Under the pieces are notes generated by a model, which worked only from the letters and a program-made list of their open reading frames with translations, was not told the DNA's origin and searched no databases. Made by a program: the position numbers and the translations under genes. This document shows positions 7,571 through 41,214 of a stretch of 64,000 bases of DNA, in pieces; position 1 is the first letter of the stretch, and every line of letters begins with the position of its first letter. The DNA lies in the NCBI GenBank assembly GCA_029582155.1, contig CM055898.1, positions 20,720,229 through 20,784,228 on the forward strand, read 5' to 3'. Origin of the DNA: Panopea generosa (lineage: Eukaryota; Mollusca; Bivalvia; Adapedonta; Hiatellidae).

Positions 7571-7576
7571 TTTATT
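7571..7576 (-). promoter_or_regulatory. Candidate polyadenylation signal AATAAA
   Basis: TTTATT on the plus strand reads AATAAA on the minus strand, ~240 nt past the stop codon at 7815. It is the first canonical hexamer I find downstream. AT-rich DNA produces this hexamer often by chance. Confidence 0.35.
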
Positions 7577-7814: not shown

Positions 7815-10800
7815 CTATATCAACACAATTTCTTCATCAGCCTCATGCTCAGCTTCAGTTTCATTACCCAAAATTGTTGATATTGTTTCATTCAGAATGA
7901 ATCTCGCTCCAGGTTTAATCGGGGTGCTCTGCATGAATTGTAAAGCTGACATTTTATTGGACATGTTAGCTGAATGTATATTTCCTGATTTTACAACATT
8001 ATTTCCTGATTTTACAACATTATTCGTTTTCCTGGAATTATTTGGCGATAATTTTGTTCTGTCAAAGTACCTATTTTCTTTCGGTGCTGGTCTTGCAAAT
8101 ACAGGAGGACTAATTGGTACTTTGAAATTTACAAATTGACTGGAAGGCTGTCTACTTTTTGAGTTTTCGATCACTTTTAATTGTTTTCCGCTTGTACCAG
8201 TCTGTAAACTTTCCTGGTTACTTGTATTGTTGGATACTTTCATATTATTTTCTTTATCGGCACTAACTGAAAATAAGCTTTTTTTCATTTTAGGTTCGGC
8301 TTTTTCAACATTTGTTCTTTGAACTTCACTTGATAAGAAAGAGCTGTCACCCAAGAATCTCTGAGAAGGCCTTATTTCATTATTTCTATCTTGATTCATA
8401 GTAAATTGATTTCTCAACTCTGAATGATCACAGTTTGGTAAGTTCAATTGGTCACTTCCTATTTTCATGGTTGGTGTTTTATGTGAAGTATTTTCATGAC
8501 TAACTTGAGCTTTTGCATGCTGGACAGGATCATAGTTTGTCAATTGTGTCTGTTTTGAATGCAAAGGCTGGACTCGCAGTTGCTTAGAAGAGTAGGAAAG
8601 TTTGTCCAAACTTATAAATCCTACTTGCACACTGTCTTGAAGTATATTATCATCTACAAAACATGGATTAACATCATCATCTTCACCATGATGATCAGAC
8701 CACTGTCGATCACCACCTGGCAGTAGCTGTTTAGAGATCATTTCATACTTTGAGGAAAGCGTTCCATTATCGAAGTTGTTTCCTTGATAATGTATATGAC
8801 TAGTCGAGTCTTCATCAAATTGTTGCTTTTCATTTCTTTCCCTATTCCAAGTGCGTACCAAAGACTGTTTTGCCTGCATTTCTTTAGGGTGCGAATTAGG
8901 AGTGTTTAATTTTAACTTAGCCATATTCGTACTGGGTGAAAAATATTCTCCATCATCGTGATCATTTTTCTTTGATCTACAAATTCTTGGAGACAGAAAT
9001 TCATTTTCAATCTTTCTGTATTCATTGTCTTTAAAATTGGAGTTTAAACTAGGCGACCGAAATTCATTTACTGCAATATGTTGAAATCTGGAAACTTTTG
9101 GCGATTTAATAACTCCATATTTTTCTTCTAACCTGTTGTTACTTCTACTGGTATGGTGGTTAGGTGAATCCATTTCTACCTCATATACACTGTTATTCTC
9201 CTCATAAACAGCAACCATTTTGTCTCTGTTTGTCACCACATGCTGTGAGCCATTTATTGTCTCTCTATTTTCCGTATATATTACATTAAAATCTTTCCTA
9301 TTTCCTCCAGCTTTTGTTGTTAACATTTCATTTTCATTGATTTTAAAACCATTTAATTTTGTAAAATGGTTACTATTTTCATTCTCACCGATTCTGTTGA
9401 ATTCATTTCTTCCCTCTGATGAACTTGCCATTTTTCCATTTTGGAAGCGACCAACACGGTTATCATTGTAATTGTCAGTTCTGTTAGTATGTCCAGTCTC
9501 CAAAGTTTCAGTGTCTCTTCTACATTTAGTGTAATGACTATCTTCGTTCTTTCTATACAATCTCTCAGTGCTATAGCAACCATAATTCTCCCTGCACCTT
9601 TCGTTAATATTTCTATTTTTCTCTGAATCTAATTCTCTGTCATGAACCATACGTGTAGCTCTAACAATGCCATGCTCATCACCACTATTTTGTTTTACTT
9701 TCCCATAGTAAACAGTTTCTCTGTATGGTTGGTTTGAAAGATTTGCACCATTTTCAGTGACCAGTTCTTCAGTACCATTCTGTTTTGCAACAATACCATC
9801 TTTATCAGAGTTTCCATACCTGCGGTTGATATCTGCACTGTTATGCCTTACAGGTCTACATGTATACTGAGACTGACTTTCCATTCTTTCTGACACGAGT
9901 CTTGTGTTAGGTGATGGAACTGAAGTGGTATATTGTTTTAATAAGGATTTAGAACTTTGATTCACACTATGAGATGGATATCTAAGTCTCCCACTTTCAT
10001 TAAAATAGTCCTTTTTCATTCCATCTTGCTCATCTTGTCGAATGTTATATTGCTCAACATTCTCATATTGATTGGTTGATGCCCTTAAGTCATTATTTTC
10101 ACTTTGTTTTCCATTTCCTGACATGCAACTTTCTTTAGTCATGTTTGTATTTTGTTTATCTTTATAAATCTTTTGATGACCTTGACTTATGGGCGATTCT
10201 CTAATCATGTGTTCATGAGTTTCATCTACTTCATCATTTAAACTATCTTCACTGCTCCAGTGCGCCCATCTTTGGTCTGATTTCAATCTTCGCAATGTCC
10301 CAGTATGTTTAATGATTGCTTCACTTTCTTCTCTACCTATCTTACTTACTTTTCCTCTATTTACATCACATCTTTCTCCTCTATTTATTCTTCCTTCACT
10401 TTCCATTTCACGTCCTACTCTATCCATCTCTCCACTTCCTTCTCTGCACATTTCAATTATTTCTCCTCTACCAACTTTACTTATCCCATCTCTACCCACC
10501 TCATTTCTTCCTCCTCTTTCAATCTCATGTCCTCCTTCTCTGCTTATCTCACCACTTTCTCCTCCACCCATTACAATTCTTCTTCCTTTACTCATCTTAC
10601 TCCTTCCTTTTTTAAGCATATCACTTTTTCCTTCTCTATCCATCTCATTTCTTCCTCCTCTTCTCATCTCACTTCTTTCATCTTTACCCACCTCAGTTCC
10701 TTCTCCACCAATGCCATTTCTTTTCCGTTCCCACACCTCACTTCTTCCCTCTCTATCCATCTCATTTCTTCCTCCACATGCCTCATTTCTACCCTCTCTA

Positions 10801-13412
10801 CTAACCTCACTTCTTCCATTTCTATCCACCTCATTTCTTCCTCTTATCATCTCATTTCTTCCTCCTCTATTCATCTCATTTCTTCCTCCTCTGTCCATCT
10901 CAATTCTTCCTTCTTGACCCATCTCAATTATTTGTCCTCTATCCATATCACTTTTTTCTATTCTACCTTTCCCATATATCCCTTCTCCTCCAATCACATT
11001 TCTTCCTTCAATTTTTCTTTCTCTTCCCATCTTACTTGCTCTCTCTCTGTTAATGTCATTTTCTCTTTCCCTATAGATCCCACCTCTTCCATCAATAACC
11101 ATCTCCCTTTTACTCCCTCTACCAATCATACCATTCTGCTGTCTCCAACTTGAACTTGTCAATACCCTGTGTTCCTGCTCAAGTTTTCTACTTTTTGCAC
11201 GGGATGGTGCAACATTTCTCCTGATTTCATCGTGGTTTTCATCATTTTCTAAATTTTCAAACTCTTCAGCAAATCTCTTCCCTACTAAGCCCTCTTTTCT
11301 CCTACCGCTTGATGTGTACAGTTCTTTTGAAGAAGGAGAATTATAAGAAAGTTGATTATGTTTATCTTTAGTTGAGAATTTAGACATTGCTTCAGCAATC
11401 TCTTCATTTTTTAACATCTGAAAAGTCTGTACTACATTTAATGCCCTAGCACCTTTTTTAATTACTCTGTCTTCAAACATAAGTTTTGCTGTTGTACTTG
11501 CATGTACAGGAGTTGGAATTTCCGGTCTTTTTGCACCTTGAAAATAAAAATCCACACAGTTTTCATCCCGCAACTTTTGAAAATGTGTCTGCCTTGGTAG
11601 ATTTTGTCTTGGGGATTTTTGGTAGAGTTTTTGTCTTGGCGATTTTTGTAAATTGGTTTGATCAGCAGGTTTGTGAAGATATAAACTGTTTTGCCTTTTG
11701 GTTTTGGGAGAGAACTTTTCTTCAAATACATCTGCTTTACCAACTTTGCAGACATTGTTTTGAAAATATTTGTCATCATTGGGTATATCATTATTTTCAC
11801 CATTTTGTTGAACAAACTTAACAAATACATTGTCTGGCGATGCACTATTTTGATATTCTTGTCTACAATCAGAGTACATTCCATTCAACTTTTGATCCAT
11901 TGTACTGTCCAGATCTGCATCTGGATCAGTTTTCAGTTCAGTTAGCCACATTCTCACTTTATCATCGTTCTTATTGCTTCCTGATGTTTCACACTCAGAC
12001 TGGTCTAATGATACATTAACAAAACTAAACTTCTCTGAAAATGACTGATTGAATGTTTTCAGATTTTTTATACTCAGTAATTCTGCACCCATGTTTTCTT
12101 CATGAAATGTGCTAACCCCAGAGTCTGTCTTCGAACTCTGATCACAAAATGTTTCTGTTAAAGCTGTATCATTTCCAGCTGTTAGCAAAGTAGAATCAGG
12201 AACGTTTTGATGGAAGTGTCCCCTGGCTTGTCGGTGATGCAGAGGGGTGTTTATAAAGTTTGGGCGTTCATTTTTCAACTGTTCTGCACAAAATGCATCA
12301 ATATTTCTCCCCCCATTTGATGAACCTTTAACATATGAACTATCTCTAACTTTAAGGTATTGGTCACTATTTCTATTTACTTGCGGGATTTTACCATGTT
12401 TTGTTATTTTTATATTTTCAGAATATTCTGTATGTGGACTTTCATTGTTTTTCATGTTTTCTGGTCTAAATTTTGTGGAATAAGAAGCTTCATTTCTATC
12501 GTTACTGTTGATATATTGAGTATATTTTCCACTGACCCGACTTCTCCTCGATGGAGTCAAATCATTATAGCTTCGATTTTTCATTTTTGGACTGGAATAA
12601 ACACTGTTGGCATTTGAAAACATTTTTTTCAGGACTGGAGGTGAATTGAGCAAATTACTGTCGTTTGACCTTAAATCAGCATGAACATGGTCAATATGAT
12701 TATCAACTGCTTTTAAAGTGGGTGGTGACTTTGACAATGGAGAGAACTCATTTCGTCCCTGAGTAGGAGACATATTCAGCTTTCTATTCGGAGTTGAATT
12801 GTTTTTATGAGGAACACATGGTTGTTGCAGCTTGTCCTGCTTCTGAAAGTTTTGAAAATAATTGATCTGATTTTTCTTATTTGAAGTTTCTGAACCAAAG
12901 GTCACCTTGTTCCTACATTCCTTATCATTTTGGTGGGACACAACAGGTTGTTTGTCACCCAGGTGATCTTGTTTAAATGGGGAGTACTGTGTAGATACTC
13001 TTTTTTTATCAGTTTGGTTCCAGTCAAAGCAGTCATCCCTATACTTCCAAGTCAGTCCGGGTACAATCTGTCTGGCATCAATGCTTTCAAACACACTCTC
13101 ATCCTTGTCGGATACCATATTTGAATTGTCTCCTACAGAATTATTGTTTATTTCTTTTGGATGAATGAGTGCTTTCCTGCATTTCACTTTGCTATCATTA
13201 TTTTGCTTTAGCCTTGTTTTTTCATTGTTTTTCTCTATTTTCTGTTGATTTTTCATTATGTGTTGAGTTGCATACTTTTGTCTTTCTTCCATTTCATGTT
13301 CATATTTGTTGCTATGGTTGTTACTATGGTTGCTGTCAGTGTTGCTTGTAAAAAGATGTCTGTCTGGAATACAATTCCGTTCAACTACAAAAGTTTCACC
13401 TAATCTTCCAGC
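7815..13412 (-). CDS. Coding exon 7 (terminal, 5.6 kb), residues 205-2069
   Basis: A single open frame of 1865 codons follows acceptor TTTTCTTTTGCAG|GCT and ends at TAG. It contains no recognisable folded domain. Visible features: an aromatic-rich island IVPGLTWKYRDDCFDWN at residues ~318-334; proline-directed sites such as SPPTLK, SPKMK, TPSRR, SPRQK and SPKVSR spread along the exon; an 8-residue repeat block at ~958-1242; KEN at 8247-8255 and 8073-8081; a duplicated NNVVKSG near 8000; and an acidic tail EAEHEADEE. An uninterrupted frame this long in AT-rich DNA is hard to explain unless selected. Confidence 0.9.
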   Translation of the reverse strand, partial: AGRLGETFVVERNCIPDRHLFTSNTDSNHSNNHSNKYEHEMEERQKYATQHIMKNQQKIEKNNEKTRLKQNNDSKVKCRKALIHPKEINNNSVGDNSNMVSDKDESVFESIDARQIVPGLTWKYRDDCFDWNQTDKKRVSTQYSPFKQDHLGDKQPVVSHQNDKECRNKVTFGSETSNKKNQINYFQNFQKQDKLQQPCVPHKNNSTPNRKLNMSPTQGRNEFSPLSKSPPTLKAVDNHIDHVHADLRSNDSNLLNSPPVLKKMFSNANSVYSSPKMKNRSYNDLTPSRRSRVSGKYTQYINSNDRNEASYSTKFRPENMKNNESPHTEYSENIKITKHGKIPQVNRNSDQYLKVRDSSYVKGSSNGGRNIDAFCAEQLKNERPNFINTPLHHRQARGHFHQNVPDSTLLTAGNDTALTETFCDQSSKTDSGVSTFHEENMGAELLSIKNLKTFNQSFSEKFSFVNVSLDQSECETSGSNKNDDKVRMWLTELKTDPDADLDSTMDQKLNGMYSDCRQEYQNSASPDNVFVKFVQQNGENNDIPNDDKYFQNNVCKVGKADVFEEKFSPKTKRQNSLYLHKPADQTNLQKSPRQKLYQKSPRQNLPRQTHFQKLRDENCVDFYFQGAKRPEIPTPVHASTTAKLMFEDRVIKKGARALNVVQTFQMLKNEEIAEAMSKFSTKDKHNQLSYNSPSSKELYTSSGRRKEGLVGKRFAEEFENLENDENHDEIRRNVAPSRAKSRKLEQEHRVLTSSSWRQQNGMIGRGSKREMVIDGRGGIYRERENDINRERASKMGRERKIEGRNVIGGEGIYGKGRIEKSDMDRGQIIEMGQEGRIEMDRGGRNEMNRGGRNEMIRGRNEVDRNGRSEVSREGRNEACGGRNEMDREGRSEVWERKRNGIGGEGTEVGKDERSEMRRGGRNEMDREGKSDMLKKGRSKMSKGRRIVMGGGESGEISREGGHEIERGGRNEVGRDGISKVGRGEIIEMCREGSGEMDRVGREMESEGRINRGERCDVNRGKVSKIGREESEAIIKHTGTLRRLKSDQRWAHWSSEDSLNDEVDETHEHMIRESPISQGHQKIYKDKQNTNMTKESCMSGNGKQSENNDLRASTNQYENVEQYNIRQDEQDGMKKDYFNESGRLRYPSHSVNQSSKSLLKQYTTSVPSPNTRLVSERMESQSQYTCRPVRHNSADINRRYGNSDKDGIVAKQNGTEELVTENGANLSNQPYRETVYYGKVKQNSGDEHGIVRATRMVHDRELDSEKNRNINERCRENYGCYSTERLYRKNEDSHYTKCRRDTETLETGHTNRTDNYNDNRVGRFQNGKMASSSEGRNEFNRIGENENSNHFTKLNGFKINENEMLTTKAGGNRKDFNVIYTENRETINGSQHVVTNRDKMVAVYEENNSVYEVEMDSPNHHTSRSNNRLEEKYGVIKSPKVSRFQHIAVNEFRSPSLNSNFKDNEYRKIENEFLSPRICRSKKNDHDDGEYFSPSTNMAKLKLNTPNSHPKEMQAKQSLVRTWNRERNEKQQFDEDSTSHIHYQGNNFDNGTLSSKYEMISKQLLPGGDRQWSDHHGEDDDVNPCFVDDNILQDSVQVGFISLDKLSYSSKQLRVQPLHSKQTQLTNYDPVQHAKAQVSHENTSHKTPTMKIGSDQLNLPNCDHSELRNQFTMNQDRNNEIRPSQRFLGDSSFLSSEVQRTNVEKAEPKMKKSLFSVSADKENNMKVSNNTSNQESLQTGTSGKQLKVIENSKSRQPSSQFVNFKVPISPPVFARPAPKENRYFDRTKLSPNNSRKTNNVVKSGNNVVKSGNIHSANMSNKMSALQFMQSTPIKPGARFILNETISTILGNETEAEHEADEEIVLI

Positions 13413-16400
13413 CTGCAAAAGAAAACAAGTTTAATATTTATTTACCTTAAACATGTTGAAGTATGTTTTTATTATAATTTATTATTGAACTTTAATTATT
13501 ACTTGACAAGATTCCTTCATACTGTATAGTGCTTACATGTTTCTCAAACTTTTATATCTTCAAACAATGTAATAAACATGTACCAGCAAGTTTCTCCACA
13601 TGCCATTTACATATAAGTGCAAAAATATAGATATTACCAGAATAATAGCTTGAGCTATATCAACATTACAAGTTTCAACCGAACATGAACAATGTTAACA
13701 TTAAATTAGAGTCAGGATTAAAATAACTGCGTCATGTATGATATATCCAGTTTTATTGGTGGAGAAATATTTCATAATGAATCTTGAGTTGGACCATTGT
13801 CCTTCATCAAGTAACTCGCAAACACTCTCTGGGCTTGAACCCATGACCTCTGCAGGGAGAAGTAAGTGATCATTTGACCACTTGTTTATCAAGGTAACTA
13901 AATTTTAATACTTGAAAAATGGGCATTTCAAAACAAACTTACTCATTAACAATAATATGTATGTAGTATAAAGGCATTGAACTGTTTTACCATCAAGTAT
14001 ACCTACCTGTAGTTGATCACTCGTGTCACTGTTTCCTGTGCTAGCATATTCCTCATAACCAATGTAACCATCATCTGCTTCATCAACCTTTCCATCTGTA
14101 TCATCTACATCAGATTCTGTAATTACATACAATGTATGAATATCATCAAGTGCTAATCTCAAAGTTTAGTATTGGTATTTTGTTACAGCAAATTCATAAA
14201 ATTAAAATGTGTCTTGTTACTTTTTCTCTTTAAATGGGTCTACTCTTATACTTAGATGTTTCAATATATGTGCGGGTTATGATACAAACTTATCCATCTT
14301 TATCATCTCTGATGTTTGCTTTTAGAAAAGCAAGCTTCAGAGAAGATCAAAACTAATAACAAACTTTCAACTGTCTAATAAATAGACAATGTTTATTTCA
14401 TTTTTATTAATGACTGAAAATAGTGAAATCAGATATAGAATGTCACTATTCTTGATTTTATCAAAAAATAATCATGAATACTAATCATAAACGAAATTAT
14501 TAAAGACAACTCTTATATTGATATGAATTGTTTTGCCACCCATGGATAATTTAATTTTTCATCTTTCTACATTAGTAACTTTTATATGTGTATGATGTGT
14601 ATTTAAAATGGTTTAGTACACTACTTCTAACGTTAAATAATAAATATTTCGTAAAAATTCCAACATTTTTAAACTCGTAATGCCGACAGTTTTAATCCAG
14701 AGAAAAAAAATCAAATATCTGGTATTTAAAAACAATCATCAGATTTACTTTTGAACCAAAATTATTAAGTTCAGACAATGGTTCAAAGATTTAATATTAA
14801 AGAAATACTGAAAGTACCACCCAAAATTTCAGCTTTGTATAATGAATTAACATTAGCCTGCCGGTCTCTGTAATTAAGTCACTGACCATCATTACCTGTT
14901 TTTGTCCCCAGTGCCTGTTCCTGAAGACTACAGCTAGAATCAGTTGCAGACTCGTTACACAGCTGGGCACCGTCAGTGACCTCTTCCTCAAGGTCACTGT
15001 AAAACGTGTCCTCAGAATCACTTGAATTAGAACTGAGGGTCTCAGCATCACTGGGTTCTTCCTCCCCATAGTCAAGATTAACTAAAAATGTAAACGAGTA
15101 TTGTTAAATTACACGTTATGTTTAGATATTATTAAAACATACAAACTTGTGTATAAAAATGGAGTATAATTCGAAGTTCCTGATAAGTGTAAACCATAGG
15201 AAACTAGTCTAGATTGAAAAAGTCATAGCCATTACCCCAGAAAAAAAATATCTGTGCTCATGGTTACTTGACCAAAACAATAGGGTAGGTATGTAGACTT
15301 TCTGTTCTTTTCTAATTTTATTTCATGGAGAAAATGTCATAATAATGAACTATTATGAGCAAATTGATTTTAACTTGTTTTTCTATTCAATAAAAAACTA
15401 TTTATTATTATAGTAAGTCAAAAAAGAACAATACAAATATAATTTTCTAGACACATTAGGCAAAATCGTTCTGCAGTCTTTCGTTCTTTATATTTTAAAG
15501 AACTCAATTTTAGGGTCGGTCTGTATTATGAAACAATTAAGTCATTTTTACACCAAACAGAAAACAGGATAATCTAATGTTTCCCAGTCATGTGTGATCA
15601 AGCACGTAAGATTATTTACTTTTTTAGTGAATATTACTTTATATCAAATACATATATACACTGTTCCAGTAAATAAATATGCTGACAAACATACATTTAT
15701 AAAGAAAACACAACTATAAGTTATTACATAAGTTACAGCTATTTCAGTTTCCATAAATAATTTCTGTTAATACACATGTACCTACAAAGCTGTTGTCACA
15801 ATCAGTTTTTCACGGGAGAATAAATAAGTGAAGGAAGGAAGAACAAAATAAATGAATGGTGTTTTAATGTATGTCAACACTTAAGAGGGTCATTGTGTGC
15901 ATGTGAAACTAATTGATGTTTTGTTATTCGATTCATGTAAAGGTTGGCATTCAAGAAATCCTACGGGTTGTTTCCGAAACCAACTGGCATTTTCTGAGTG
16001 AACAAATGCCAAATTTGAACCCTAGTTAAGACATATAAACAGTCAGCTGCAGCAGGTACTTAATACACTTTAATTAACAAATAAAACTATAAAGATATGA
16101 AACAGAAACTGCTGTTATATAAAACAGGTGGCTGTTTACTAGAACTAACTGTTGATATAGATTTGTACACATACTGCTCACCTTTAAAGAGGTCCTCTGT
16201 CCGTAATGAAACATCACCTGCACCAGCCCCGTACAGACTGACATCTGGCCGATATGTAGTAAGTCTTGATGTGTCTGGAGTTAAATGATAAAAACATGAT
16301 TATGTAAATCTTGCTATTCCTAGTATAAGTCAAGTAATATGTCTGACAATCCTATTATGTTGAATAGTTAACAGATGATATGCATATTTATTTTTCAATT

Positions 16401-19400
16401 AAAGAAACTCAATTTAGAATTAACTTTCCAAGCATGCCTGATAAGCAGCATGTTGGAGAATCTTTACTTAAGTTTTACTTATAAACATAATTAAAATAAA
16501 GGAAGTTTTAGATTATTAACTTACATACATCATCTGTTCCTTTTACATTGATTGTGAAATAACTTGTGCAAAAAAAATGTTTTAAAGATTATCTTTGTGA
16601 TTTTGAAGTTATGTTCAAGACAAGCAAAGTTCAGAAAATTACAAAAATGGAAAGTAATTCCAATACAAAAGAACAACCCAGATTATGCTATTGTGCACTG
16701 GAAAATACCTCACTGTGTACAAAGATTCATAAAATTATCTTCTTTACTTTTCAAAATAATCTGGAGACAAGACAGCGGACAGAAGGATGGACAGAAAAAG
16801 AAGCAACTTAATGCTCTGCCCAAAAATAGTTTCAGGAAGAATAAAAATGAAAATTATTTCACGACTTATTTATCAAGGTCACCGTTTTATACAGACAAGC
16901 TCAAAATGCCAAAATACATGACACCAAATTAAAGAGAGACTATTTATATTCCTTCCTTTTTACAGAAAATTTATATTCATAGTTAAATTATACATTCAAA
17001 TGATACAGTAATTGATTTATTTGACTTAACAATACTTAAATTGATTGATTGATTGATTGATAGACTAATATTATAACTATAGTAACCTTGGTCATTATCT
17101 TAAACCAGTTTGTATAGAATGGATTGGTTGGTTGGTTGATTGATTGGTTGATCAATATAACTGTACTAACCTTGGTAATTATCTGATACCAAATTGTATT
17201 TTCCAAATTTCTCAAGTTCTTGAAGTTTACCTGTTCATAAAAAAATTATGCATATAATATATTATTTAATTAATATCTGTCATTTTTTTGTACAGAATCC
17301 CAGAGGGTATTATAATACCCTAAAAGGTGTATATCAGGGAAAAAAATTACTATAAATGTGTTAAAAAATAAAATAATTATTAAAAAGGATAAAAAGCATC
17401 TCATTATCATTAATAAATAAAATCCAAATGATTTGGTATGTCAAATCCACCAAATTTGACAAAATCGATATTTAAACTTGAAACAAAATCTCCATTCTAA
17501 AAATAGACAGCATATAAATACTGCTTGATGACCTTCACATTGTCATTCATACTTTTCGCTAAGATGAAATAATTTTTACTATGTGTAATCCTGCAAACCG
17601 ATCAAATTGAAATGAAAATGAAATCATATTTATATATATCTTAACACTCTTTTTATAGTATCAGCTTTTGGTTTAATGAAAATATTTGTTTCACATTGTA
17701 AACATTTCCCATAAAATCATAAAATATGAAAACAATTATAATACCTTTTTTATCCTTAACGACTTTAAATTCAGAAAGATTAAGAACAGATTCTAACTCT
17801 TCCTCATCCTGCCTTCCATACTGAAAAGTAAACACAATAAAAATTAGAAATCTATGATAAATTTGCTTATCCCTCAATGTTCCCAAATCCTGATAAATTT
17901 TACGTCTACCAAGAAACCTGGTGATGGAGATGAGATTTGGGTAACAAATTGTGTAGAGTATAGTAAAAACATATCTAAATAGAGTTTGATTTAAATATAG
18001 CCATTTCTTCAGGTTTGCTTTTTTGTCATTTAATATATCATATTTATGTTAGACTTCAAAGGGAATCCCCGGATGGACATATAACTAATACAGGGATCAC
18101 ATTTGGCCATGATTACTCAAGATTCATGAGTTTATTTTATAAAAAAAAACACATAAAAAATCTGGATTTCCAACAATTTTTGGCAATGACTTATATAGAG
18201 ATTGATTGGCATTTTATGAACACTTGATTTTTCATGCAAAATCTCATTGTCAAATATCCCAACTCCTATTCATCTCAGGAATACAAATATTTTTTTTCTG
18301 TGCACAATGAAATTAAATTTGCTACAAAATGATACCCTTCCTAGACATTTGTGTTTTAAATTGTTATAAATTTACTCATGAATGAAAACAAAATTTGTAT
18401 ACTGATGAATGCGTAATATAAATTGTAGCACACCAGTAAATGTGATTTTATATTCATTTTAAAGTTTATAATTTTTGTGATACAGACTAAATCTTAACCA
18501 TCTTTGGTGCTTGCTTTTCTGAAAGCAGACATCAGAGATGATCAATATTGCTTCATCTGTATTGAATGGTACTAGTATTTGAAAACATTTAACAAGGCCA
18601 TAATTTAGTAGAATGATATTTATTGTCTAAGACTATCCAAACAAAAATCTTGTTTGTTCCCCCAAAAGTGATTTTACAGTTTCACTTAATTCTTCTTCCA
18701 GTAATGTACATGGCCCACTCTGGAGCATTGTCGTACAATGTGACTTATGAACAAAGTGTATAGGTGCAGGTAAAACAGATCTCATCATCTGTATCATGCA
18801 TGTAGACACACCAACTCTCCCCCTGTTGTCTTCTAAGGTGTTCTTGAAGCTGGTTCCAGAGTCCAACTGTAACACAATCAACATCTAGCACAACCAGTAT
18901 TCAATATTTTTGTTTGAAACATATTTATTTTACAATGATTGTGAAACAAGCTTGTACCACTTATACAAATCACACCCAAAGTCTTCCTGGGTAGACCAAG
19001 TACTAAGCATATATGCAAATAAAGTGTCTTCTTGCTCAAGGACACTACACAGAGCCGTCTATCAATGTATCTTCCACATAGCCAAACCCCTCGCGAGGAC
19101 ACAGGCTTCGCACACATATTTGACATAAACTGACAAAGAGATAAAAAGAAAAAGGCTTTTAAAAGCATAATTGTTTTTAAAAGCAGTTCAAAAACAGAGC
19201 AGGTTTCTAGGCGGACACATGTTTGTCCAATCCCAGCACTAGTGTGTGACGACCAAACAGAGGAGCAGTACTCAAGCTGGGGCCTTACAAGTGTCATGTA
19301 ATGCCTTGGATTATAGTTATAAATCTGAGTGAACTTTTAAGTTTCGTCTGAGGAATCCTAGTGTTTGATTTGCTTTTTTTGTAATGTTTTCTGTGTTTGT

Positions 19401-19867
19401 TCCATGCTAAGTCTTCTGAGATTGCGATTTCTAAATATTTTGCTGACGTGGCTGTTTTTAATGTAGTGTTGTGGAGAATATATTTAGTCTTTTTCAGTTT
19501 TTCTTTTAGTCAGGATCAAACCACGATCCTTGGTTTGATACTCTACCACTGGACTATTTAAAACAACTTAGACCATTGAAAACGATTAGGGCCAGAAAAT
19601 ACAAGGACTATATCGCCCAGAAAACCATTGAGAAGTCAGGAGGTGCCTTTTCCAAACTGATAAGTTGAATAGCGAAAACCAGTGACAAACATATTATTAT
19701 TAAATTTACATATATTATAAAAGATACACAGCTTGTATATTAATAAGATATTAGCTGAAAACATTATATATCTGTTTTACCTTTTCTATTATTGAATTAA
19801 TTGTTGTATTATATCGTAATGAGCTTTGTTTATATTTTTCTATAATTTGGTTCAAATCACGCGCCAT
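7815..19867 (-). CDS. Seven-exon gene; tentative Scm3/HJURP-like protein, 2069 aa
   Basis: Spliced from exons 19867-19781, 17820-17745, 17230-17171, 16274-16182, 15081-14896, 14116-14007 and 13412-7815. Every intron is GT-AG and the phases (0,1,1,1,1,0) keep one frame of 2070 codons including TAG. The start ATG has a good context (AAAA before, G after). Residues ~15-66 read as a helix ending IIEKYGR, an acidic run DEEELES, then EFKVVKDKKGKLQEL. This matches the pattern of the Scm3/HJURP motif (IIEKYG, acidic, EIVVDNGHL-type strand), whose known members deliver CENP-A to centromeres. Residues ~108-200 are Ser/acidic. The rest is Asn/Ser/Lys/Arg-rich and probably disordered, with many S/T-P sites, KEN motifs at ~1924 and ~1982, a repeat block at ~958-1242 and an acidic C-terminus. 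Known HJURP is much shorter, so the family call is inference. That this is a real spliced gene is much surer than its function. Confidence 0.8.
10300..11150 (-). repeat. In-frame 24-bp coding minisatellite within exon 7
   Basis: The frame repeats an 8-residue unit of the type GRNEMDRG (variants GRNEMNRG, GRSEVSRE, GRNEVGRD), about 30 degenerate copies over residues ~958-1242. The plus strand shows a matching 24-nt CT-rich period (catctcatttcttcctcctc...). Because the period is a multiple of three, it also leaves long spurious plus-strand frames. The segment is Arg/Gly/Glu-rich with mixed charge. Confidence 0.85.
13728..13895 (-). mobile_element. SINE-D remnant in intron 6
   Basis: It contains 'atatatccagttttattggtgga', 'accattgtccttc', 'cttgaacccatgacctctgc' and 'agtaagtgatcatttgaccac' in the same order as the SINE-D copy at 60778-61027. 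Strongly degraded. Confidence 0.6.
14007..14116 (-). CDS. Coding exon 6, residues 168-204, Asp/Glu-rich
   Basis: The acceptor is ATGTAATTACAG| and the donor is CTACAG|GTAGGT. The 110-nt exon enters in phase 1 and leaves in phase 0. It encodes ESDVDDTDGKVDEADDGYIG then YEEYASTGNSDTSDQLQ and joins in frame to exon 7. Confidence 0.77.
14117..14895 (-). other. Intron 5
   Basis: AT-rich intron. A ~65-bp stretch at 14281-14350 with 'gtttgcttttagaaaagcaa' resembles 18481-18545 ('cttgcttttctgaaagcaga'), a small dispersed repeat that can fold on itself. Confidence 0.6.
14896..15081 (-). CDS. Coding exon 5, residues 106-168, Ser/acidic
   Basis: The acceptor is TACATTTTTAG| and the donor is AAAACAG|GTAATG. 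The 186-nt exon is phase 1 on both sides. It encodes a strongly acidic, Ser-rich stretch (for example SSNSSDSEDTFYSDLEEE) with several casein-kinase-2-like sites. GC content is higher than in the flanking introns, which supports coding. Confidence 0.78.
15082..16181 (-). other. Intron 4
   Basis: AT-rich. I see no gene, no tandem repeat and no clear transposon in it. Confidence 0.6.
16182..16274 (-). CDS. Coding exon 4, residues 75-106
   Basis: The acceptor is TTTAACTCCAG| and the donor is TTTAAAG|GTGAGCA, a strong donor. The 93-nt exon is phase 1 on both sides and encodes DTSRLTTYRPDVSLYGAGAG followed by DVSLRTEDLFK. Confidence 0.75.
16565..16815 (+). repeat. Bivalve-type dispersed repeat in intron 3
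   Basis: It carries 'aaatggaaagtaattccaa', 'ctggagacaagacagcggac' and 'agaaggatggacagaaaaag', which recur in weaker form at 47395-47460 ('tgacaaagttacagacggac', 'gaaggatggatgg'). The 122-codon frame across it is low-complexity and is not taken as a gene. Confidence 0.5.
17040..17160. repeat. TTGA/TTGG microsatellite with partial exon 3 duplication
   Basis: TTGATTGATTGATTGATTGA at ~17041 and TTGGTTGGTTGGTTGATTGA at ~17124 each precede a related block: 'taaccttggtcattatctta' (17081) and 'taaccttggtaattatctga' (17167). The second block is the 3' end of exon 3 plus its donor; the first is a decayed copy with an in-frame stop. Confidence 0.75.
17171..17230 (-). CDS. Coding exon 3, residues 55-75
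   Basis: The acceptor is ATGAACAG| and the donor is TACCAAG|GTTAGT. The 60-nt exon is phase 1 on both sides and encodes GKLQELEKFGKYNLVSDNYQ. A decayed copy of its 3' end and donor lies just downstream at 17084-17116. Confidence 0.68.
17325..17625 (+). repeat. Dispersed repeat family F, copy 1 (intron 2)
   Basis: The ordered blocks are 'ataaaaagcatctcattatc', 'gtcaaatccaccaaa', 'gacagcatataaatactgct', 'tgatgaccttcacattgtca' and 'taagatgaaataatttttac'. The same blocks are shared with 51215-51560 (+) and 63400-63735 (-). Confidence 0.8.
17745..17820 (-). CDS. Coding exon 2, residues 30-55
   Basis: The acceptor is TTTACTTTTCAG| and the donor is AAAAAAG|GTATTA. The 76-nt exon encodes YGRQDEEELESVLNLSEFKV followed by VKDKK and the first base of a Gly codon. 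Joined to exon 1 it completes the IIEKYGR motif, the key part of the Scm3-like pattern. Nothing else in the intron offers a better in-phase exon. Confidence 0.72.
18640..18872 (-). pseudogene. Possible decayed coding fragment in intron 1
   Basis: One minus-strand frame reads VTVGLWNQLQEHLRRQQGE, then SWCVYMHDTDDEICFTCTYT, a stop, VTLYDNAPEWAMYITGRRIK, a stop, and NCKITFGGTNKIFVWI. The composition (W, C, Y, H, D) looks protein-like in spite of two stops. It is not part of the gene around it. I do not recognise the family; a transposon remnant is likely. Confidence 0.4.
18922..19080 (-). mobile_element. SINE-A copy in intron 1
   Basis: Contains 'ttattttacaatgattgtga', 'acaaatcacacccaaagtct', 'cctgggtagaccaagtacta' and 'tgctcaaggacactacacag'. 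It is reversed relative to the 4022 copy, and the tRNA head is mostly lost. Confidence 0.75.
19085..19510 (-). pseudogene. LINE reverse-transcriptase C-terminal fragment in intron 1
   Basis: The minus strand encodes MTLVRPQLEYCSSVWSSHTS followed by AGIG (from 19297), the conserved RT/thumb-side motif 'LVRPQLEY..SVWSPHT' of non-LTR elements. Upstream another frame gives LHNTTLKTATSAKYLEIAIS and EDLAWNKH, matching the usual 'TSAKYLGV.ISDDL.WN.H' segment. Frameshifts and stops show it is dead. Confidence 0.8.
19781..19867 (-). CDS. Coding exon 1 (start exon), residues 1-29
   Basis: The exon runs from ATG (19867) through MARDLNQIIEKYKQ to INSIIEK, then a donor reading AAAAG|GTAAAAC. It is 87 nt and ends in phase 0. 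IIEK occurs twice about 18 residues apart, which suits a helix. The sequence upstream of the ATG (19868-19920) is probably 5' UTR; I see no clear TATA box. Confidence 0.75.
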
Positions 19868-25264: not shown

Positions 25265-25430
25265 TTAGTCATGTCCATTTCATTACTTTCAGTGTGTAAG
25301 TTGTTATCAATCAGTATAGTTCCAGGATGCCACACGAGTGATGGCAAGATATGGATCATAGCAACTTGTATATAGATGTACTGAGTATAAGTTACACAGT
25401 GTGCTGAAACTCTGCAGTTAATCCAGTATT
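25265..25430 (+). mobile_element. SINE-E internal copy that runs into the 41-bp satellite
   Basis: It is colinear with 49690-49815. Shared blocks: 'ttccagg', 'gagtgatggcaaga', 'ggatca', 'ttgta', 'tgagta' and 'tgctgaaactctgcagtt'. The last block is the core of the 41-bp unit that then repeats for 3.5 kb. Confidence 0.7.
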
Positions 25431-28400
25431 TGTTACAGAGTGTGCTGAAACTCTGCAGTTAATCCAGTATTTGTTACAGAGTGTGCTGAAACTCTGCAGT
25501 TAATCCAGTATTTGTTACAGAGTGTGCTGAAACTCTGCAGTTAATCCAGTATTTGTTACAGAGTGTGCTGAAACTCTGCAGTTAATCCAGTATTTAAAGT
25601 TACAGAGTGTGTTGAAACTTTGCAGTGAATCCGGTATTAGTTACAGAGTATGCTGAAACTCTGCAGTAAATCCAGTATTGGTTACAGAGTGTCCTGAAAC
25701 TCTGCAGTTAATATGGTATTAGTTTCAGAGTGTGCTGAAACTCTGCAATGACTCCAGTATTGGTTACAGAGTGTGCTGAAACTCTGCAGTGAATCCAGTA
25801 TTAGTTACAGAGTGTGCAGAAACTCTGCAGTGAGCCTGGTATTAGTTACAGAGTGTCCTGAAACTCTGCAGTAAATCCAGTATTGGTTACAGAGTGTCCT
25901 GAAACTCTGCAGTTAATACGGTATTAGTTTCAGAGTGTGCTGAAACTCTGCAATGACTCCAGTATTGGTTACAGAGTGTGCTGAAACTCTGCAGTGAATC
26001 CAGTATTGGTTACAGAGTGTGCTGAAACTCTGCAATGAATCCAGTATTAGTTACAGAGTGTGCAAAAACTCTGCAGTGAGCCTGGTATTAGTTACAGAGT
26101 GTGCTGAAACTCTGCAGTGAATCTGGTATTAGTTACAGAGTGTGCTGAAACTTTGCAGTAAATCCAGTATTGGTTACAGAGTGTACTGAAACTCTGCAGT
26201 GAATCTGGTATTAGTTACAGAGTGTGCTGAAAATCTGCAATGACTCCAGTATTGGTTACAGAGTGTGCTGAAACTCTGCAGTGAGCCTGGTATTAGTTAC
26301 AGAGTGTGCTGAAACTCTGCAGTGATTCCAGTATTGGTTACAGAGTGTGCTGAAACTCTGCAGTGAATCCAGTATTGGTTACAGAGTGTGCTGAAACTCT
26401 GCAGTGAGCCTGGTATTAGTTACAGAGTGTGCTGAAACTCTGCAGTGAATCCAGTATTAGTAACAGAGTGTGCAAAAACTCTGCAGTGAGCCTGGTATAA
26501 GTTACAGAGTGTGCTGAAACTCTGCAGTGAGCTCGGTATTAGTTACAGAGTGTCCTGAAACTCTGCAGTGAATCCAGTATTGGTTACAGAGTGTGCTGAA
26601 ACTCTGCAGTGAGCCTTGTATTAGTTACAGAGTGTCCTGAAACTCTGCAGTGAATCTGGTATTAGTTACGGAGTGTCCTGAAACTCTGCAGTGAATCCAG
26701 TATTGGTTACAGAGTGTCCTGAAACTCTGCAGTGAATCCATTATTGGTTACAGACTGTGCTGAAACTCTTCAGTGAATCTGGTATTAGTTACAGAGTGTG
26801 CTGAAACTCTTCAGTGAGCCTGGTATATTCACAGAGTGTGCTGAAACTCTTCAGTGAATCCAGTATTGGTTACAGACCGTGCTGAAACTCTTCAGTGAGC
26901 CTGGTATTAGTTACAGAGTGTGCTGAAACTCTGCAGTGAGCCTGGTATTAGTTACAGAGTGTGCTGAAACTCTGCAGTGAATCCAGTATTGGTTACAGAG
27001 TGTCCTGAAACTCTGCAGTGAATCCAGTATTGGTTACAGAGTGTGCTGAAACTCTGCAGTGAGCCTGGTATTAGTTACAGAGTGTCCTGAAACTCTGCAT
27101 GGAATCCAGTATTGGTTACAGAGTGTGCAGAAACTCTTCAGTGAATCTGGTATTAGTTACAGAGCATGTTGAAACTTTGCATTTAATCCAGTATTGGTTA
27201 CAGAGTGTACTGAAACTCTGCAGTGAATCCAGTATTGGCTAAAGAGTGTCCTGAAACTCTGCAGTGAATCCAGTATTGGTTACAGAGTGTGCTGAAACTC
27301 TTCAGTGAATCTGGTATTGGTTACAGAGTGTGCTGAAACTCTTCAGTGAGCCTGCTATTAGTTACAGAGTGTGCTGAAACTCTTCAGTGAATCCAGTATT
27401 GGTTACAGAGTGTGCTGAAACTCTTCAGTGAGCCTGGTATTAGTTACAGAGTGTCCTGAAAGTCTGCAGTGAATCCAGTATTGGTTACAGAGTGTGCAGA
27501 AACTCTTCAGTGAATCTGGTATTAGTTACAGAGCATGTTGAAACTTTGCATTTAGTCCAGTATTGGTTACAGAGTGTACTGAAACTCTGCAGTGAGCCCG
27601 GTATTAGTTACAGAGTGTCCTGAAACTCTGCAGTGAATTCGGTATTAGTTACAGAGTGTCCTGAAACTCTGCAGTGAATCCAGTATAAGTTACAGAGTGT
27701 GCTGAAAATCTGCAATGATTCTAGTATTGGTTACAGAGTGTGCTGAAACTCTGCAGTGAATCCAGTATTGGTTACAGAGTGTGCTGAAACTCTTCAGTGA
27801 GCCTGATATTAGTTACAGAGTGTGCTGAAACTCTTCAGTGAGCCTGGTATTAGTTACAGAGTGTGCTGAAACTCTTCAGTGAATCTGGTATTGGTTACAG
27901 AGTGTGCTGAAACTCTTCAGTGAGCCTGCTATTAGTTACAGAATGTGCTGAAACTCTTCAGTGAATCCAGTATTGGTTACAGAGTTTACTGAAACTCTTC
28001 AGTGAGCCTGGTATTATTTACAGAGTGTGCTGAAACTCTGCAGTGAATCCAGAATTGGTAACAGAGTGTGCTGAAACTCTTCAGTGAATCCAGTATTGGT
28101 TACAGAGTGTGCTGAAACTCTGCAGTGAGCCTGGTATTAGTTACATAGTGTCCTGAAACTCTGCAGTGAATCCAGTGTTGGTTACAGAGTGTGCAGAAAC
28201 TCTTCAGTGAATCTGGTATTAGTTACAGAGCATGTTGAAACTTTGCATTTAATCCAGTATTGGTTACAGAGTGTACTGAAACTCTGCAGTGAGCCCGGTA
28301 TTAGTTACAGAGTGTCCTGAAACTCTGCAGTGAATCCGGTATTAGTTACAGAGTGTCCTGAAACTCTGCAGTGAATCCAGTATAAGTTACAGAGTGTGCT

Positions 28401-28962
28401 GAAAATCTGCAATGACTCTAGTATTGGTTACAGAGTGTGCTGAAACTCTGCAGTGAATCCAGTATTGGTTACAGAGTGTGCTGAAACTCTGCAATGAATC
28501 CATTATTAGTTACAGAGTGTGCTGAAACTCTTCAGTGAGCCTGGTATTAGTTACAGAGTGTCCTGAAAATCTGCAATGACTCCAGTATTGGTTACAGAGT
28601 GTGCTGAAACTCTGCAATGACTCCAGTATTAGTTACAGAGTGTGCTGAAAATCTGCAATGACTCCAGTATTGGTTACAGAGTGTGCTGAAACTCTGCAGT
28701 GAATCCAGTATTGGTTACAGGGTGTCCTGAAAATCTGCAATGACTCCAGTATTGGTTACAGAGTGTGCTGAAACTCTGCAGTGAGCCTGGTATTAGTTAC
28801 AGAGTGTCCTGAAACTCTGCAGTGAATTCAGTATGGGTTACAGAGTGTGCAGAAACTCTTCTGTGAATCCAGTATTGGTTACAGAGTATGTTGAAACTTT
28901 GCATTTAATGCAGTATTGGTTAAAGAATGTGCTGAAATTCTGCAGAGAATCCGAAATTAGAT
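25391..28962. repeat. 41-bp satellite array, ~86 copies
   Basis: The unit reads ttacagagtgtgctgaaact, ctgcagtgaatccagtattg, g. The first copies are nearly identical; later ones fall into subtypes (tgaatccag, tgagcctgg, tgactccag, tcttcag) that recur in the same order, so blocks of several units were duplicated together. Each unit holds CAGAGT...ACTCTG, a 6-bp inverted pair. Confidence 0.95.
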
Positions 28963-29830: not shown

Positions 29831-32800
29831 GATGGATGATGAATATACTCTTCATTATCTCCGAGGTATTATTTCACCAATATTGCCAGATGCCATAGGA
29901 CCTGGATTGTATTATGATAACCAAAATACATCACATTTATTTATGAAGACAGTTTAATCTTAGTATAAAAGCAATAGTTTATAGTGGTACCATAATTTTA
30001 TATCTTTTTATATATTAATATACATCATGTTTTCATTTCCACTCAAGAAATATGAAAATGCAACACGGGAAGAGATAAAAACACAACACAGGAATAGATA
30101 TGAAAATGCAACACATGAACAGATATGAAAATGCAACACAGGAACAGATATGAAAATGCAACACAGGAACAGATATGAAAATACAACATAGGAACAGATA
30201 TGAAAATGCAACACAGAGACAGATATGAAAATGCAACACAGGAATAGATATGAAAATGCAACACAGGAACAGATATGAAAATGCAACACAGGCAGAGATA
30301 TGAAAATGCAACATAGGAACAGATATGAAAATGCAACACAGGGACAGATATGAAAATGCAACACAGGAATAGATATGAAAATGCAACACAGGAACAGATA
30401 TGAAAATGCAACACAGGCAGATATATGAAAATGCATCACAGGAACAGATATGAAAATGCAACACAGGAACAGATATGAAAATGCAACACAGGAACATATA
30501 TGAATATGCAACACAGGAACAGATATGAAAATGCAACACAGGAACAGATATGAAAATGCAACACAGGAACATATATGAAAATGCAACATAGGAACAGATA
30601 TGAAAATGCAACACAGGGACAGATATGAAAATGCAACACAGGAATAGATATGAAAATGCAATACAGGAACAGATATGAAAATGCAACACAGGCAGAGATA
30701 TGAAAATGCAACACAGGAACATATATGAAAATGCAACACAGGAACAGATATGAAAATGCAACACAGGAACAGATATGAAAATGCAACACAGGCAGAGATA
30801 TGAAAATGCAACACAGGAACTGATATGAAAATGCAAAACAGGCAGTGATATGAAAATGCAACACAGGAACAGATATGAAAATGCAACACAGGGAGAGATA
30901 TGAAAACGCAACACAGGTAAAGATATGAAAATGCATCACATGAACAGATATGAAAATGCAACACAGGGAGAGATATGGAAACACAACACAGGGAGAGATA
31001 TGAAAATTCAACACAGGAACAGATATAAAAATGCAACACAGGGAGAGATATGGAAACATAACACTGGGAGAGATATAAAATGCAACACAGGGAGAGATAT
31101 GAAAACGTATTACAGGGATATATATGGAAAGGCAACACAAGGAGAGATATGAAAATGCAATACAGGGAGAGATATGAAAATGCAACAGAGAGAGAGATAT
31201 GAAAATGCAACACAGGGAGAGATATGAAAATGTATTACAGGGAGATATATGGAAACACAACACAGGGAGAGATTTGAAAATGCAACACAGGGAGAGATAT
31301 CAAAATACAACACAGGGAGAGATATGAAAATGCAACACAATACAGACATGAAAATGCAACACAGGAAGAGATATGAAAACATGACAAATGGAGAGAAATG
31401 AAAATGCAACACAGGGAGAGATATGGAAACATATTACGGGAGATATATGGAAACACAACACAGGGAGAGATTTAAAAATGCAACACAGGGAGAGATATCA
31501 AAATACAACACAGGGAGAGATATGAAAATGCAACACAGAAACAGACATGAAAATGCAACACAGGAAGAGATATGAAAACATTACAAATGGAGAGAAATGA
31601 AAATGCAACACAGGGAGAGATATGAAAATGCAACACGTGAACAGACAGGAAAATGCAACACTGGGAGAGATATGGAAACACAACACAGGGATAGGTATGG
31701 AATACAACACAGGGAAAGATATGAAATGCAACACAGAACAGATATGAAAATGCAACACAGGGAGAGATATGGAAACACAACACAGGGATAGGTATGAAAA
31801 CACATCACAAGGAGAGATATGGAAACACAACACAGGGAAAGATATGAAAATGCAACACAGGAACAGACATGAAAATGCAACACAGGGAGATATATGTAAA
31901 CACAACATAGGGAGAGGTATGAAAACACAACACAGGGAGAGATATGAAAATGCAACATAAGGAGAGATATGAAAATGCAACAGAGGAACAGATATCAAAA
32001 TGCAACACAGAGAGAGATATAAAAAGGCAACACAGAAACAGATATGAAAATGTGACACAGGGAGAGATATTAAAATGCAGCACAGGGAGAGATATGAAAA
32101 CACAACACAGGAAAAGATATGAAAATGCAATACAGGGAGAGATATTGAAATACAACACAGGGACAGACATGAAATGCAACATAATGAAAGATATGAAAAT
32201 GCAACACAGGGACAGATATAAAAACGTATAACAGGGAGATATATGGAAACACAACACAGGGAGAGATTTGAAAATGCAACACAGGGAGAAATATGAAAAC
32301 ACAACACATGGAGAGATATCAAAATACAACACAGGGAGAGATATGAAATTTTTCAACACAGAACAGATATGAATATGCAAAACAGGCAGTGATATGAAAA
32401 TGCAACACAGGAACAGATATGAAAATGCAACACAGGGAGAGATATGAAAACGCAACACAGGTAAAGATATGATAATGCAACACATGAACAGATATGAAAA
32501 TGCAACACAGGGAGAGATATGGAAACACAACACAGGGAGAGATATGAAAATTCAACACAGGAAAAGATATAAAAATGCAACACAGGTAGAGATATGGAAA
32601 CATAACACAGGGAGATATATGAAAATGCAACACAGGGAGAGATATGAAAACGTATTACAGGGATATATATGGAAAGGCAACACAGGGAGAGATTTGAAAA
32701 TGCAACACAGGGAGAGATATCAAAATACAACACAGAGAGAGATATCAAAATACAACACAGGGAGAGATATGGAAACACAACACAGGGAGAGATATGAAAA

Positions 32801-34254
32801 TGCAACACAGGAACAGACATGAAAATGCAACACAGGGAGATATATGTAAACACAACATAGGGAGAGGTATGAAAACACAACACAGGGAGAGATATGAAAA
32901 TGCAACATAAGGAGAGATATGAAAATGCAACAGAGGAACAGATATCAAAATGCAACACAGAGAGAGATATAAAAATGCAACACAGAAACAGATATGAAAA
33001 TGTGACACAGGGAGAGATATTAAAACACAGCACAGGGAGAGATATGAAAACACAACACAGGGCAAGATATGAAAATGCAATACAGGGAGAGATATCAAAA
33101 TACAACACAGGGACAGACATGAAAATGCAACATAATGAGAGATATGAAAATGCAACACAGGGAGAGATATAAAAATGTATAACAGGGAGATATATGGAAA
33201 CACAACACAGGGAGAGATTTGAAAGTGCAACACAGGGAGAATATGAAAATGCAACACATGGAGAGATATCAAAAAACAACACAGGGAGAGATATGAAAAT
33301 GCAACACAGAACAGATATGAAAATGCAACACAGAAACAGACATGAAAATGCAACACAGGAAGAGATATGAAAACATGACAAAGGGAGAGAAATGAAAATG
33401 CAACACAGGGAGAGATATGAAAATGCAACACAGGAACAGACAGGAAAATGCAACACTGGGAGAGATATGGAAACACAAAACAGGGATAGGTATTGAATAC
33501 AACACAGGGAGAGATATGAAAATGCAACACAGAACAGACAAGAACATGCAACACAGGGAGAGATATGGAAACACAACACAGGGAGAGATATGAAAATGCA
33601 ACACAAGGAGAAAAATGAAAATGCAACACAGGGAGAGATTTGAAAATGTAAATCTCAAAGGCAACACAGGAAAAGATATTAAATTGCAAAACAGGAACAG
33701 ATATGAAAAAGCAACCCAGGCAGAGATATGAAAATGTAACACAGGAACAGATATGAAAATGCAACACAGGGTGAGATATGAAAATGCAACACAGGTAAAG
33801 ATATGAAAATGCAACACAGGAACAGATATGAAAATGCAACATATGGGATATGGAAACGCAACACAGGGAGAGGTATGAAAATGTAACTAAGGAGAGATAT
33901 GAAAATGCAACAGAGGAACAGATATCAAAATGCAACACACACAGAGATATGAAAATGCAACATATGGGATATGGAAACACAACACAGGGAGAGATATGAA
34001 AATGTAACTAAGGAGAGATATGAAAATGCAACAGAGGAACAGATATCAAAATGCAACACAGAGAGAGATATGAAAATGCAACACAGAAACAGATATGAAA
34101 ATGTGACACAGGGAGAGATATAAAATGCAGCACAGGGAGAGATATGAAAACACAACACAGGGATAGATATGAAAACAAATTACAGGGAGATATATGGAAA
34201 CACAACACAGGGAGAGATATGAAAACACCAAACATGGATAGAGATGAAAACATA

Positions 34255-34303
34255 TCACAATTATCGCCAATTTCAACACATTTTAGGTTATATACAGATA
34301 TGA
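34255..34303 (-). mobile_element. SINE-D tail fragment inside the 25-bp satellite, copy 1
   Basis: 'gccaatttcaacacatttta' + 'ggttatata' matches the SINE-D end at 60795-60835 ('gccattttcaacatatttca' + 'ggttatata'). It recurs at 38706 and, with more of the SINE, at 40708. Confidence 0.75.
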
Positions 34304-37300: not shown

Positions 37301-38705
37301 ACAGACATGAAAATGCAACAAAATGAGAGATATGAAAATGCAACACAGGGAGAGATATAAAAATGTATAACAGGGAGATATATGGAAACACAACACAGGG
37401 AGAGGTTTGAAAATGCAACACAGGGAGAGATATGAAAATGCAACACATGGAGAGATATCAAAAAACAACACTGGGAGAGATATGAAAATGCAACACAGAA
37501 CAGATATGAAAATGCAACACAGGAACAGACATGAAAATGCAACACAGGAAGAGATATGAAAACATGACAAAGGGAGAGAAATGAAAATGCAACACAGGGA
37601 GAGATATGAAAATGCAACACAGGAACAGACAGGAAAATGCAACACTGGGAGAGATATGGAAACACAAAACAGGGATAGGTATTGAATACAACACAGGGAG
37701 AGATATGAAAATGCAACACAGGAACAGACATGAAAATGCAACACAGGGAGATATATGGAAACACAACATAGGGAGAGGTATGAAAATACAACACAGGGAG
37801 AGATATGAAAATGTAACATAAGGGGAGATATGAAAATGCAACAGAGGAACAGATATCAAAATGCAACACAGAGAGAGATATGAAAATTCAACACAGAAAC
37901 AGATATAAAAATGTGACACAGTGAGACATATTAAAATGCAGCACAAGGAGATATATGAAAACACAACACAGGGATAGATATGAAAACAAATTACAGGGAG
38001 AGATATGGAAACACAACACATGGAGAGAGATGAAAACATATCACAGGGAGTGATATGAAATAGTGACACAGGAACAGATATGAAAATGCAACACAGGAAC
38101 AGATATTAAAGGCAACACAGGAAAAGATATTAAATTGCAAAACAGGAACAGATATGAAAAAGCAACCCAGGCAGAGATATGAAAATGTAACACAGGAACA
38201 GATATGAAAATGCAACACAGGGTGAGATATGAAAATGCAACACAGGTAAAGATATGAAAATGCATCACAGGAACAGATATGAAAATGCAACATATGGGAT
38301 ATGGAAATGCAACACAGGGAGAGGTATGAAAATGTAACTAAGGAGAGATATGAAAATGCAACAGAGGAACAGATATCAAAATGCAACACACAGAGAGATA
38401 TGAAAATGCAACATATGGGATATGGAAACACAACACAGGGAGAGATATGAAAATGCAACTAAGGAGAGATATGAAAATGCAACAGAGGAACAGATATCAA
38501 AATGCAACACAGAGAGAGATATGAAAATGCAACACAGAAACAGATATGAAAATGTGACACAGGGAGAGATATAAAAATGCAGCACAGGGAGAGATATGAA
38601 AACACAACACAGGGATAAATATGAAAACAAATTACAGGGAGATATATGGAAACACAACACAGGGAGAGATATGAAAACACCAAACATGGATAGAGATGAA
38701 ATCAT

Positions 38706-38754
38706 ATCACAATTATCGCCAATTTCAACACATTTTAGGTTATATACAGATATG
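38706..38754 (-). mobile_element. SINE-D tail fragment inside the 25-bp satellite, copy 2
   Basis: Same junctions and flanking units as at 34255, offset by ~4451 bp, so it was copied as part of a higher-order block and was not a new insertion. Confidence 0.75.
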
Positions 38755-40707: not shown

Positions 40708-40765
40708 ATTTTTTTTTTGAATGGGGTTTAATGCCAATTTCAACACATTTAAGGTTATATACAGA
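40708..40765 (-). mobile_element. SINE-D tail fragment inside the 25-bp satellite, longest copy
   Basis: Carries 'ttttttttttgaatggggtt' + 'taatgccaatttcaacacat', the terminal T-run and 3' end of SINE-D (compare 60778-60830). Flanking satellite units match those beside the shorter copies, so this is probably the ancestral form. Confidence 0.75.
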
Positions 40766-41214
40766 TATGAAAATGCAACACAAGAAGAGATATAAAAGGC
40801 AACACAGAAAGAGGTATAAAATTAAAACACAGGAACAAAAATGTAAATGCAACACAGGCAGAGATATGACAACACAACACAGGGAGAGATATGAAAATGC
40901 AACATAGAGAGAGATATGGAAATGCAACACAGGGAGAAATATGAAAACACAACACAGGGATAGGTATTAAAATGCAACACAAGGAGAGATATAGAAACAA
41001 AACACAGAGAGAGATATGAAAATGCAACACAGGAACAGACATGAAAATGCAACACAGGGAGAGATATGAAAACACAACACAGGGATAGGTATGAAAACGC
41101 AACACAAGAAGAGATATGGAAACACAACACAGGGAGAGATATGAAAATGCAACACAGGAAGAGGATATGAAAATGCAACACAGGGAGAGATATGAAAATG
41201 CAACATATTCAGCA

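Follow-up and report, generated by a model that had tools for sequence, protein, structure and literature searches.

Based on a match to the Pfam Scm3 profile that is nearly full length and spread over three exons, and on the finding that no other family fits better, we conclude that a gene on the minus strand of the window (the whole 64-kb stretch of Panopea DNA analyzed here) very probably codes for a chaperone of the Scm3/HJURP type that serves the centromeric histone CENP-A. This supports the identity that had been proposed in the initial annotation of this DNA. HJURP/Scm3 orthologs with an scm3 domain are described from most metazoan lineages investigated (PMC13322267, July 2026). Because animal candidates, from snail, annelid, flatworm, fish, nematode, and insects, had already been published there, our result extends a published one and does not open a new question. 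If the assignment is right, a family for a long time believed to be absent from many animals gains an intact gene, whose product has an unusually long tail. The gene would also show why its kind escapes notice: three exons share the domain, which reaches the family cut-off only when freed from the tail.

Gene structure and coding evidence

The initial annotation had joined six short exons and a 5.6-kb terminal exon into one reading frame, and our analysis confirms this model. The seven exons lie on the minus strand between 19867 and 7815 (Table 1), separated by introns that are 514 to 1960 nt long, have GT-AG borders, and are compatible in phase, and together they give a single frame of 2069 residues followed by a stop. 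The N-terminal features that had been pointed out are present as well: in the spliced protein, IIEKYGR is found at residues 26 to 32, EFKVVKDKKGKLQEL at residues 46 to 60, and an acidic stretch at residues 106 to 204. The first intron is in phase 0 and splits K29 from Y30. The ATG has an A at -3 and a G at +4, and there is an in-frame stop 25 codons upstream of it.

Table 1. Positions in the window of the exons and other features of the gene
Feature	Position	Strand	Description
Exon 1	19781..19867	-	Residues 1-29; ATG at 19867-19865; putative scm3-domain helix up to K29
Exon 2	17745..17820	-	Residues 30-54 and one further base; holds Y30 of KY, an acidic linker, and the putative strand NLSEFKVVKDKK
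Exon 3	17171..17230	-	From residue 55; GKLQELEKFG; scm3-domain end (degenerate D-x-G-x-L motif)
Exon 4	16182..16274	-	Coding score 1.9; 6/822 intron windows as high
Exon 5	14896..15081	-	Acidic, Ser/Asp/Glu-rich stretch
Exon 6	14007..14116	-	Acidic stretch continues
Exon 7 (terminal, 5598 nt)	7815..13412	-	Residues 205-2069 plus stop; polar tail, no Pfam domain above cut-off
AATAAA, candidate poly(A) signal	7571..7576	-	238 nt past the stop
Coding minisatellite	10413..11009	-	24-bp period, 25.2 copies, 64% matches; 8-residue units like RGGRNEMD
Helix-prone tail stretch (chosen by eye)	11202..11495	-	Residues 844-941; single-sequence structure prediction

From one stop to the next, the frame that contains exon 7 runs for 1871 codons. 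For comparison, we drew 60 random 64-kb sequences from exon 7's own second-order composition and read them on both strands; the longest stop-free run was 265 codons (mean, 198). The open frame of exon 7 is far beyond chance. The minisatellite part of this frame can be read largely without stops on the plus strand as well, so that part, taken alone, is weak coding evidence; the flanking parts of the frame are about 801 and 866 codons long, and each is still far above chance. We also used a coding score that was trained on exon 7 and compared each short exon with its other two frames and with sampled intron windows. In all six short exons, the frame of the gene model outscores the other two. Exons 2, 5, and 6 outscore every sampled intron window (0/824, 0/809, and 0/819, respectively, are as high), and exons 1, 3, and 4 are only moderate by this measure (13/823, 3/827, and 6/822 as high).

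The junction between exons 6 and 7 is predicted from sequence alone, and the same exons could be read as two genes, a short scm3 protein from exons 1 to 6, with about 204 residues and an end that is not recognised, and a separate gene of low complexity that occupies the 5.6-kb frame. We consider two genes unlikely. Exon 6 scores strongly as coding sequence, at a level reached by none of the 819 intron windows, and has a GTAGGT donor; the acceptor of exon 7 is pyrimidine-rich (TTTCTTTTGCAG) and its phase fits that of exon 6; and the exon 7 frame is open for only six codons upstream of the acceptor. Long polar tails are also usual in the Scm3/HJURP family (PMC13322267). For two genes speaks the fact that no Pfam match above cut-off ties the tail to HJURP, as does the observation that pieces of 64 to 260 residues outscore the whole protein against the Scm3 profile (see below), although the latter is expected from the length and composition corrections of HMMER.

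The probable Scm3 domain and its relatives

Residues 1 to 64 of the single-gene product match Pfam Scm3 (PF10384) with 27.9 bits (E = 1.9e-6), above the curated cut-off of 24.3 bits, in a search of 24736 families, and residues 9 to 61 correspond to profile positions 2 to 52 of 53. Residues 1 to 105 score 25.9 bits, which is also above the cut-off, and Scm3 is the sole family listed for them. The initial annotation had named a comparison of the N terminus (residues 1 to 75) with this profile as its own check, and the N terminus passes with both of these pieces over nearly the full profile. Nor did the closer match to another family that it had allowed for appear: no family fits residues 1 to 64 better than Scm3, the next being DUF6364, which has an E value of 0.058 and falls below that family's own cut-off. 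None of seven controls (six shuffles and the reversed sequence) matches Scm3. With longer pieces the score falls to 21.3 bits for residues 1 to 260 and to 18.6 bits (E = 0.0015) for the whole 2069-residue protein, both under the 24.3-bit cut-off, with Scm3 still the sole family listed in each case. Since the full-length score is under the cut-off, routine annotation would probably miss this gene.

The match depends on the way in which the exons are joined. Exon 1 alone scores 14.6 bits against Scm3, in two stretches, and exons 1 and 2 together (residues 1 to 54) score 27.1 bits, while exons 2 and 3 alone, or exon 1 fused to exon 4, give no Scm3 match. Splicing and family assignment therefore lend each other support: without the junction of exons 1 and 2, which lies inside the KY motif, the score stays below the cut-off. 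The KY is followed by acidic and short-hydrophobic residues, DEEELESVLNLSEFKVVKD, and the profile match runs through to position 52. IIEKY occurs twice in the putative scm3 helix, at residues 8 to 12 (19846-19832) and at residues 26 to 30 (19792-19781 with 17820-17818), 18 residues apart.

One of the closest known proteins is human HJURP (PDB 3r45 chain C), in which an N-terminal domain is likewise followed by a long polar part, and of which the fragment scores 39.9 bits against Scm3 over profile positions 2 to 52, the same span as that of residues 9 to 61 here. Local alignment (BLOSUM62) of the Panopea protein with this fragment is gap free for 31 residues through the helix, with 9 identities that include IEKY, and its score of 51 compares with 22.8 +/- 4.1 for shuffles (0/5000 as high). 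K29-Y30 is aligned with the human KY, which is consistent with the KY motifs of the two proteins being in register. Human HJURP isoforms that lack the residues from Tyr40 on suggest that an intron may lie between K and Y in the human gene as well. MAFFT alignments give the Panopea protein a linker after KY that exceeds the one in human HJURP by two residues, and the strand is placed differently from one alignment to another, so its register relative to the human strand is not fixed. Matches to the human fragment by BLASTP are weak (E values of 0.062 and 0.14, calculated for a single comparison), and a phmmer search of the PDB with residues 1 to 105, at E values up to 10, recovered neither 3r45 nor the yeast Scm3 chains.

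The II-x-KY motif, the short-hydrophobic strand, and the D..G.[LI] ending of yeast Scm3 (PDB 2l5a and 2yfv) line up with the Panopea protein. The pairwise scores to the yeast fragments are marginal (183/5000 and 229/5000 shuffles as high), and the best alignment with K. lactis Scm3 uses the first IIEKY copy (residues 6 to 13), not the domain KY. When human HJURP and yeast Scm3 are compared with each other by the same local alignment, 476/5000 and 217/5000 shuffles score as high, which fits the statement that reciprocal BLAST could not connect HJURP/Scm3 proteins (PMC13322267). A hand-made profile of three human and yeast sequences was uninformative (E = 0.99, with 3/10,000 shuffles higher), and it too was aligned to the first IIEKY copy. 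The Panopea protein was also tried as a bridge between human HJURP and yeast Scm3 profiles, and this failed both ways. A human-plus-query profile gave 46 PDB matches at E values up to 10 and no yeast Scm3; 3r45 was found, as expected with the human sequence in the profile, and the other 45/46 were influenza haemagglutinin chains with a short IEK helix. A yeast-plus-query profile gave no human HJURP, returning the two yeast Scm3 chains that are in the profile and eight unrelated chains with E values of 0.067 or worse.

The shortness of the domain and the weakness of the pairwise matches bear on whether the resemblance arose by chance, the N terminus then being a helical, IEKY-containing part of an unrelated disordered nuclear protein that was picked because the reader sought such a motif. 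The two IIEKY copies mean that a single simple helical motif accounts for some of the signal, and it is in keeping with this that exon 1 alone matches in two stretches. A chance resemblance is nevertheless highly improbable, given that the profile match extends over helix, linker, and strand (51/53 positions) with an E value of about 2e-6 among 24736 families, that it is gone without exons 2 and 3, and that the position and architecture of the domain also suit the family. An even slighter probability is assigned to a diverged paralogue, whose scm3 domain acts on another histone variant or whose chaperone role has been lost. Our analysis covers this one locus, which leaves room for a paralogue; the frame at this locus is intact, however, and most deuterostome genomes have a single strong hit (PMC13322267).

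Reading the gene as that of a CENP-A chaperone agrees with what is described for the family in animals. An N-terminal position, KY, an acidic/short-hydrophobic stretch that follows KY, and a polar remainder are features of the animal members, which are highly variable in length and have very little homology outside the domain (PMC13322267). The snail Biomphalaria glabrata has a protein of the same family, KAI8798300.1, which is a metazoan HJURP candidate with a HMMer E value of 3.9e-15 (PMC13322267). Drosophila CAL1, also a large chaperone, likewise has an scm3-like segment at its N terminus (PMC7110144, PMC13322267), and it differs in that KY was lost in fly evolution (PMC13322267) and is kept in the Panopea protein; the snail and fly proteins were both compared by description alone. 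There is no report of a bivalve HJURP among the literature matches listed, though bivalves may be included in table S1 of PMC13322267.

In solved complexes, the helix lies antiparallel on alpha2 of CENP-A, tetramerisation is blocked, and the strand follows L1 of the targeting domain (PMC13322267, PMC7110144). By analogy with these solved relatives, the N-terminal helix of the Panopea protein (about residues 5 to 30, ending in KY) would pack antiparallel on CENP-A alpha2 and so block CENP-A/H4 tetramerisation, the strand region (about residues 41 to 60) would cap, or lie along, loop L1 of the CENP-A targeting domain, and the acidic stretch may shield the basic charge of the histone.

The acidic stretch and the long tail

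Residues 106 to 204, which are encoded by exons 5 and 6, have a net charge of -28. The tail that begins at residue 205 is polar by composition, and searched whole and as nine pieces that together cover all of it, it matches no Pfam family above cut-off; it thus differs from human HJURP in that no HJURP-specific Pfam domain is matched and from Drosophila CAL1 in that no CENP-C-binding domain is recognised by Pfam. No relative of the tail was among 15 pattern matches in viral contigs. A charge-hydropathy index places 20/21 blocks of the whole protein on the disordered side and the last block (69 residues) on the folded side. For residues 844 to 941, helices are predicted at 845-884, 899-902, 913-927, and 931-937 with low confidence (mean pLDDT of 69.7 and pTM of 0.26), and the last 120 residues have little predicted structure (pTM of 0.14). 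Both predictions were made from a single sequence with no alignment, which makes them weak evidence and too weak for a structure search. Based on the crude index and on these single-sequence models of 98- and 120-residue stretches, the tail is apparently disordered.

Human HJURP has about 750 aa, compared with 2069 residues for the Panopea protein. The Panopea protein joins a known family as a further member, and its tail is unusually long when set against the lengths of other members. The initial annotation had called it both very large and unusual. The first description fits the lengths of known members; the second is only a soft claim, because length in this family is known to vary greatly (PMC13322267).

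The tail contains 28 S/T-P sites where 9.6 would be expected (1000 shuffles gave no more than 20), and four [ST]P.[KR] sites, a number that is not unusual (shuffle mean of 1.5 and maximum of 7). More loosely than for the domain, and by analogy, the S/T-P-rich tail might serve as a platform, phosphorylated during the cell cycle, that docks to Mis18- or CENP-C-type receptors and to DNA, and such docking could lead to deposition of CENP-A at centromeres only and at the right time. A further speculation, which we consider doubtful, is that the tail is a lineage-specific, phosphorylation-regulated scaffold that arose partly from the expanding minisatellite, took over centromere recruitment or DNA contact, and is fast evolving in conflict with satellite centromeres.

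Other sequences in the window and in the introns

A search against Rfam at the gathering threshold gave no matches, and 10 further frames picked by eye from the window had no Pfam match above cut-off. An 11-kb tandem array with a 25-bp unit in about 448 copies occupies positions 30046-41205, and it contains long stop-free frames on the minus strand whose sequence is repetitive and probably meaningless. There are further arrays at 25384-28952, 1-2915, and 51850-52882, with listed units of 41 bp (87 copies), 77/154 bp, and 98 bp (about 11 copies), and much of the window is satellite-like.

Intron 1 holds a minus-strand frame at 18878-19336 for which Pfam gave only two unrelated matches, both below cut-off; it reads MTLVRPQLEYCSSVW, which we take to resemble a section of a LINE-type reverse transcriptase. 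The 3' part of exon 3 and its donor site are copied 84 bp onward in intron 3 (17072-17115 and 17156-17199, 84% identical over 44 nt), and this copy is a possible decoy splice donor. Introns 5 and 1 carry inverted 69-nt arms at 14282-14350 and 18494-18562 that are 77% complementary and are possibly copies of one dispersed element.
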